Below, piece by piece: positions 10,677 through 13,600 of a DNA stretch of 32,348 bases. Origin of the DNA: a virus. The DNA is taken from IMG/VR virus record IMGVR_UViG_3300042345_000367, positions 1 to 32,348 of that record. One strand, 5' to 3'. Position 1 is the first letter of the stretch. Each line of letters begins with the position of its first letter. A program made the position numbers and the translations under genes. The notes below the pieces were generated by a model. The model had not been told where the DNA came from and did no database searches. It worked only from the letters and a program-made list of their open reading frames with translations.

Positions 10677-13600
10677 CTAATACGTGATCATAATATCGCC
10701 AACATTACCTGTCGTAGGTGATGGGTTACTTGCTGTTTGTTTAATATAAATATTTCTAACATATGCACCAGTAGTTCCACCTGGATACACTAAAGGTGCT
10801 CCTTTTCTTAAACGTAAACTTGCGTCTATGCTTATCCATGGCACTCTAAGAGATGTGTTTGTTGTTTGAACAGAAGAAGTGCTTGATTTTGATAAGTCTC
10901 CAAGATAAAGTCCTTCTGTAAACAAAAGAGATGACTTAGTTCTAGAAAACATTGCAGATTGTGTTCCTCCAGCTAAAATTTCTGTATATCCAGACGTACT
11001 AGTGCTTTCTAGCCTAAGTATTTGATCTGATGAAATCTTACCGTTAGCAATGGTTAGGGTGGGTGTTAAAGTTAGTCCCCCACTGCTTGCATTTGAGCCA
11101 TCGGAGTTAGCGTCAGAATCTCCGTCTAACCCAGAATCTGAATAAGCTACTAAACCGCTTGAGGTAATTTGATTTGAAACAGTAATTGTTGCTGCACCAA
11201 TTGTTCCACCAGTTATACTTGGAGCTGAAAGAGATATATTAGAAAATACTGTTCCATTAAAGAATGCATCTCCGCCAGACGTTAATCTAAAATTCTTTGC
11301 AGATATTCCTCCGCCAGTTAAATTGATTGCTGTTCCAGCAGTAGAGAAATCAGACCCATCATTAGTTCCAGAATGATTTTGACTCTTAATTGTTCCTGTA
11401 GTTATTTTGCCACCATCAATTGTAGTAACGTTACTCATGTCTGTTTTAGCAAGTCCTGCTACAGCGTCTGCAGAAGCATAACCAGTAATAATAGCTGATT
11501 TCATTACTACTGTTCCGTTTGCCTGTACATAAAAATTAGAAGAGGTGCTTCTAGGTCCACCTGCCCAAATAACGATATCCGCTTCGTTATTTAAATCTGG
11601 GGCAGCAATTCCTGCAGTATAACTAGCACTCGAAGCTCTTATTTGAGAATTAGAAGAATCTAAAGTTATTGTTCCTTGATTAGAAGTTTTATTAATAGAA
11701 GAAGAGTTAACATTCCAGCCACCTATGTTTGCACTTGCTGTTGTGAGAAGGCCAGTAGATCCATTAATTGTTGTTATACCATTTGTAGTTGATGAGTTAA
11801 ATGTAAGACCTAAATTATTTAATATGTATCCAGAACCACTTAATGCACCCTGTGGAGTAAGGGTTCCAGAATATAAAGATCCTCCAGAGGCAATAGAAAC
11901 GTTTCCGCTAAATGTTCCCTGTCTTGCTGTAATGTTTCCGTCTATTGCAAACGTGTTACCGTCCCAGTATAGGTAATTACTGTTTGATCCGCCAACTTTA
12001 AGCCTTGCACTATTAGCTGCGTTTAAATACCAATAGTTGCTGTCATCAAAATATAATCCTTTATTTCCAGTATTTGAATTAACTATATTTATTTGACCAT
12101 ACATCGATGAATGGAATTGGCACTGATAATAAAGAATATCAGGTGCATTTTGTGGAACCTGAAATGTAATTACACCAGAGTCTCTTGTGCCAGAAGTTAA
12201 AGACACTCCGCTAGAAAATACATTTAAAGCATTATATCCATTTCCCGAAGTTTGAATATAAAATGGATGCCCTGGGGCATTTATATTAAATGTGTAAGTA
12301 ACTCCACGAGATAGAGTTAAGGTTGCTGACTGTGTGCCGTTTACTGAATATGAGCCTGCTCCATTATTAGTTACAGTAAACTGTGTACTTGTTATTGGTG
12401 CTCCAACTCCTACGCCAAACTGAAATGGGCCTCCAGTAATATAATTAGTAACCGCTGGGGTTCCAGTGACTAAAACATCTGGGCCTGCAACGTATGATGT
12501 TGATGTATTATTGTATTCATCATAAGTAGCAACTGCAATCTTATAAGTTGCGCCAATTGCTAGTCCGCCTAACCTATATGTAGTTCCAGATCCTGGAGAA
12601 TCTACATAAGAAAATGTTGTATTGTTATCATTACTAAATCTAATTCTATATCCACGTAATCCGCCACCTGTAACAGCTGGCCAAGATATGTCTGCGTATG
12701 CATTAAACCCTAAATATCCGCTAGTATCAATTCCACTTACTGCTGTTACTGACGAAACATTGTCTGGGCCAGTGTTATCTACAACAACAGGGCTTGTTGG
12801 CTCTACTTGTACGGCAGCCCCGTAGCTACCAAATGCTTCGGTGTCGTCCATAAATCTTGCACGTACCCATCGCTTATTTGTATTTGGAACAATTACAACT
12901 GCTGGGTTAGTTGATCCAGAAAATATATCTGAAAATCCAGTTGTTGGAGCCGTGCTAGCGCTTGACTCAACTTCTTGTATTTCTATTTTAGAAAAATTTG
13001 CATTAGTTGGTATAGTATAAGAAACGCTATAGCCATTGCTTATTGGAGAAGCAGTAATTGTTGCAGCTGGAAGACTGCTTGCGTAAGCTGATAATGGAAA
13101 CGATAAAGCAGCTCCCTCATTCCCATATATATTTACAGTTTTTATTGTTGCAGATATATTCCTTTGAACTAGTCCAAACATGGCTTTGTTTTGAGATAAG
13201 CTAAGAACATAAGATTGAGCAGATACTCCTGATGTTGGAACAATTTCAACTACCCTTGAAGTATTACCACTTGTTGAGGTTAATGTTATTCTATAATAAC
13301 TAAAAAATTCTTCTGCTGGATTGTGTGTCCAATTTAATTTAAAATTTGAACCAATCCACTCTGCTGATAATGCAGTTGGTAAAGTATTTGGGATAAGTTT
13401 TGGAGTTTCAAATTGGGCAGTGCTGAATGGAGACTCAACTCCGTCAACAGAAACTACTGTTAGCTTAACACTGTGCGCCCTTGGCGGCACTGCTACTCTT
13501 ATGGATCCAGCAGATTTTAAAAATCCAACTAGCCTATACGGTGAGCCAATTAATGTTTCGTCTTTTATATAAACATTAATTCTATCAAATGCTTTTGTAT

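Follow-up and report, generated by a model that had tools for sequence, protein, structure and literature searches.

The tail fibre gene

The window analysed here (the whole 32,348-nucleotide stretch of IMG/VR virus record IMGVR_UViG_3300042345_000367) encodes a 1078-residue protein (Table 1) whose assignment as a tail gene product follows from its location, on the downstream side of the tape measure and other minor tail genes, and from two PHROG matches: one to 'minor tail protein' over residues 180-489 and the other to 'baseplate wedge tail fiber protein connector' over residues 401-613. Its FN3-like region is homologous to gp62, a minor tail protein of Streptomyces phage Anedea, and the Pfam fn3 family matches part of that region with 24.5 bits, slightly under its cut-off of 25. 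The sequence-only reading had placed the domain that is the subject of this analysis among fibronectin-like repeats. That description holds on the N-terminal side, with its sub-cut-off fn3 match, but not after the domain, where a Pfam search of the fibre protein returned no FN3 match. Residues 619-1078, on the C-terminal side, have no match among isolated phages.

Table 1. Positions of the fibre gene, its predicted domains and putative metal ligands, and two further genes of the window
Feature	Positions	Strand	Basis
Tail fibre/minor tail protein gene, 1078 aa	10677..13913	-	ORF; PHROG matches
FN3-like region, residues 180-471	12501..13376	-	27% identity to Anedea gp62; Pfam fn3 at 408-467
Predicted cupredoxin domain, residues ~503-613	12075..12407	-	AlphaFold2; Foldseek and VIA-align; profile against PDB
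His549, first copper-type ligand (GHPF)	12267..12269	-	Position verified; aligns with ligand His of plastocyanin and amicyanin
Cys598, putative ligand, sole Cys of the protein	12120..12122	-	Position verified; profile alignment
His601, putative ligand	12111..12113	-	Position verified; profile alignment
Met604, putative axial-type ligand	12102..12104	-	Position verified; profile alignment
Second large tail protein, 1033 aa	7567..10668	-	Weak PKD match at 502-576
Zinc-ribbon-like protein, 75 aa	6898..7125	-	Repeated CxxC motifs (CQSC, CKQCGC)

A cupredoxin was looked for in Anedea gp62 and none was found; since the homologue shares the FN3-like region without it, the cupredoxin behaves as a movable module. 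Compared with the window, the close relatives L001 and L002 show 88-89% identity in the domain and 97-99% in the FN3-like segment before it, as against 63-72% at the two fibre ends, which marks the segment and the domain together as a slowly changing region. The best isolated relatives of the capsid and tape measure proteins, among the matches listed, are Streptomyces phages of ~130 kb, and their likeness makes an actinobacterial host for the window phage plausible. The second large tail protein of the window has a strikingly Cys-rich C-terminal part.

Predicted fold and putative copper ligands

An AlphaFold2 model of the domain, made from 32 sequences, is confident (pLDDT 92.4, pTM 0.84) and has the Greek key beta-sandwich of the cupredoxins. 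Its top Foldseek match in the PDB is rusticyanin (E 1.5e-6), and all of the matches listed at E<=1e-3 are cupredoxins or enzymes assembled from cupredoxin domains. Aligned with rusticyanin by VIA-align, the model gives a Z of 10.8 and an rmsd of 2.5 over 102 residues, at about 21% identity. Searching the PDB with the single window sequence yields nothing real, and a profile is required: profiles of 13 or 32 homologues match mainly cupredoxins (plastocyanin, copper nitrite reductase, amicyanin, auracyanin, pseudoazurin, rusticyanin and CuA domains). (One alignment, A1, was too diverse to be usable for locus scanning.) In the profile alignment the first His is paired with the ligand His in plastocyanin and in amicyanin, and the Cys, His and Met with the ligands of the loop, which aligns to that of amicyanin without a gap; this alignment to solved copper proteins implies that the four residues would converge on one metal site. 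The proposal that the fibre has retained a cupredoxin fold with its metal site is thus supported by the model and the aligned ligands; a fold holding the four residues far apart, which would have told against it, was not what the model and the alignment indicated.

PF25489 (At5g54830-like, its namesake a plant DOMON-type protein) is the sole Pfam family whose cut-off, 27 bits, the isolated domain passes, with 30.3 bits (29.2 in another run), and since the full-length fibre scores 24.7, membership is marginal. At E <= 0.1 the window domain has no match to PF00127 (Copper-bind, plastocyanin/azurin), a family that 4 of the 13 homologues match weakly; a search of NCBIfam gave no match.

The residues themselves are where the sequence-only reading had put them: a script located H549 in NAPGHPFYIQTS and C598, H601 and M604 in ILYYQCQFHSSMYG, and the stretch 12078-12401 that had been singled out corresponds to fibre residues 505-612. 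The type 1 ligand set, His ... Cys-xn-His-xn-Met, is present in cupredoxin order, with the C-x2-H-x2-M loop of amicyanin. 'Amicyanin-like', the earlier label, is therefore apt for the length of the loop but not as a statement of kinship, rusticyanin being the nearest fold and other cupredoxins scoring about as high. Chance occurrence of the motif was considered and is ruled out by conservation in the family and by shuffling, any C-x2-H-x2-M having appeared in 1 of 20,000 composition-preserving shuffles of the fibre. The residue that follows the first ligand His is usually Asn in plastocyanin and amicyanin; in the window domain it is Pro, and this counts against reading the site as copper-type.

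Taken on sequence and model, fibre residues ~503-613 are nevertheless very probably (about 0.8) a cupredoxin domain in which His549, Cys598, His601 and Met604 make up a complete type 1 copper-type site, a probability that covers the site and not its role. From the fold and the ligand set together we infer that each chain binds a single copper. A site for a different metal, or one that is purely structural, is improbable: Cys/His sites are able to take up Zn in vitro, but here the type 1 ligands are all present and in the order found in cupredoxins, and the Met is invariant wherever the domain is intact.

Ligands kept or lost as a set

Among 44 representatives with less than 60% identity, all four ligands are present in 42, and the only column more conserved than the four of the ligands (ranks 2 to 5) is an invariant Tyr. 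Losses were searched for in scans with one gp9 domain and two degenerate domains as probes, the latter picked in order to find them; in the 240 distinct domains for which every one of the four columns is aligned, four ligands are kept in 177, three in none, two in 2, one in 17 and none in 44, so that 63 domains have two or fewer. When the columns were shuffled independently, so few three-ligand domains arose in 0 of 2000 trials at each of three clustering levels. In the intact domains all four ligands, Met included, are invariant. A metal site shared by the four residues predicts all-or-none retention of just this kind, and the ligands would accordingly appear to share one function and to be lost as a unit, as is expected of such a site. 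The loss events that are independent of one another are few, however, since five changes, of which at least two are forced, are counted on a poorly resolved tree.

The scaffold outlasts the ligands. In the set of domains that have lost them, Tyr94 is kept in 100%, Phe51 in 97-100% and Gly37 in 89-97%, and the original ligand residues are left in only 0-33%. IMG/VR loci L229-L306 and L117-L136, for example, have the ligands replaced as a set (by YSQL, LNQM, MSDA or LADA, among others) in a conserved scaffold, and a ligand-free domain is also predicted by AlphaFold2 to be a cupredoxin (pLDDT 97.0; VIA Z 11.4). The ligands would thus be dispensable for the fold. Free variation of Cys and His among homologues had been named as something that would undo the copper-site proposal; these residues are, in fact, invariant in intact sites and lost together elsewhere.

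Ligand-free relatives, together with a weak match of the domain to Pfam DUF4352 (25.5 bits, cut-off 25.9), are what might lead one to regard it as an Ig-like beta-sandwich whose ligand set is due to chance or is a relic, with no present metal function. We find this scarcely credible: a relic should drift by losing single ligands, yet the three-ligand state is missing from all 240 domains, 53 of the 62 representatives left after clustering at 60% have an intact site, and the structural matches are to cupredoxins.

Some large phage proteins (L005, L007, L008 and L009) have HPFYIQT followed by a long insert and then LYYQDG-D-N, as against LYYQC--H--M, with the first His retained and the loop ligands gone.

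Distribution of the domain

Matches to the window domain were found by tblastn in 338 of 50,697 isolated-phage records, 331 of them with Synechococcus, Prochlorococcus and cyanophage names; the remainder comprise one Pelagibacter phage, one Actinomycetia phage and a handful of marine or uncultured phages. In many cases the protein that carries the domain, at its C-terminal end or close to it, is a gp9-like baseplate wedge-tail fibre connector. A scan of IMG/VR confirmed the domain in at least 569 stretches (569 of 600). Cellular genomes contributed 11 loci. Two of these, a 149-residue single-domain protein from a Bdellovibrionales MAG and a similar protein from a SAR324 MAG (L104, L108), have lipoprotein-like N-termini and all four ligands, and are recognised by neither Pfam nor NCBIfam; another (L107) resembles phage fibre sequence.

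With regard to virions, the S-CREM2 genome, for which there is a virion proteome (PMC10665884), has no copy of the domain on the annotated strand between 42 and 141 kb, and the passages found in the paper on S-SCSM1 do not name the tail proteins that were detected. Two observations lie further afield: predicted 'beta-sandwich proteins' of pithovirus/marseillevirus origin in BFVD (A0A481Z6J5, A0A481Z7Q7 and A0A481YVH3) match the phage domain model, and a viral ORF of 1763 aa (L010, frame +2) holds several copies of the domain.

What the site might do

Some phages go on using the domain in ligand-free form, so the basic function of the module must be a structural or a binding/adhesive one; the metal would be an added property, selected for in most lineages. 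The joint retention or loss of the four ligands suggests that a metal, most likely copper, may be present in many phage tails.

If metal is indeed bound, the role that we favour, tentatively and at somewhat short of even odds, is that of a movable fibre/connector module stiffened by copper, a knob for fibre attachment or host contact. The bound copper would link the strand that carries the first His with the ligand loop at the C-terminus, and this link would stiffen a small knob serving attachment of the fibre or contact with the host. Free copper is scarce in the host cytoplasm in which fibres are produced, and loading would therefore probably take place at lysis or in the water; the same copper-poor compartment, as the place where the fibre folds, counts against there being a copper site at all.

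The same cupredoxin and the same copper site might be used for redox, either in electron exchange with the host surface or with oxidants, or in sensing whether the fibre is inside the reducing cell or outside it. All four ligands, including the Met, are invariant in intact domains, as they are in electron-transfer cupredoxins; the nearest fold is that of an electron-transfer protein; and the isolated-phage records come nearly all from cyanophages, whose hosts presumably live in the light. The domain is located in structural proteins, however, ligand-free versions persist in phages, and within the window neither a redox partner nor any other oxidoreductase could be identified, and on balance a redox role seems unlikely. 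A related and more sweeping conjecture, to which we would give only a small chance, is that abundant aquatic phages have virions that are copper proteins, in which the loading or oxidation state of redox-active type 1 copper in fibres or connectors, set on leaving the reducing host, arms the fibre or recognises the next host.

A type 1 copper site is buried and does not easily release its metal, which would make it poor at handing over copper. That is one of the difficulties for a Trojan horse role, in which a host copper-uptake receptor would recognise the copper of the fibre; such a receptor is not known, and many copies of the domain lie in gp9-like connectors and not at fibre tips. The same idea has been proposed for tail-fibre iron (PMC11705849), and the domain does reside in fibre and connector proteins, but for copper we judge it very improbable.

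If phage tails do carry copper sites, the copper in purified virions should be proportional to the number of domain-bearing chains, and the ligand-free sister domains offer a natural control for the effect of the metal. The debate over fibre iron would gain a second metal, the widespread gp9-like cyanophage connectors would acquire a concrete biochemical property and, given the numbers of phages, there would be a bearing on marine trace-metal cycling. The cupredoxin fold is known; its phage-fibre setting appears to be undescribed. In a literature search that took in neither preprints nor most subscription papers we found no paper linking cupredoxins with phage fibres and no report of a metal measured for this phage-tail domain. 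(PMC8115048 concerns true viral nirK and is unrelated.)

Comparison with known systems

Rusticyanin of Acidithiobacillus ferrooxidans, the nearest solved fold, shares the type 1 copper ligand set with the phage domain. Its ligand loop is longer than C-x2-H-x2-M, and it is a free-standing electron carrier, unlike the phage domain, which would be part of the virion. Amicyanin, a free periplasmic electron carrier in methylamine oxidation, has the C-x2-H-x2-M spacing in common with the phage domain, and the profile aligns all four ligands; the phage domain is nonetheless no closer to it, as copper nitrite reductase, auracyanin and plastocyanin score about equally. The gp9-like connectors of T4-like cyanophages have the same domain with its ligands intact, but they come from contractile-tailed phages and the protein that carries the domain differs from the window fibre. 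The fibres of T4 (gp37) and of Alteromonas phage R22Y contain iron in HxH motifs (PMC11705849): they too are phage fibres with a metal, as is proposed here for the copper-type domain, but theirs is an octahedral iron site, in contrast to the predicted cupredoxin site of the phage domain.
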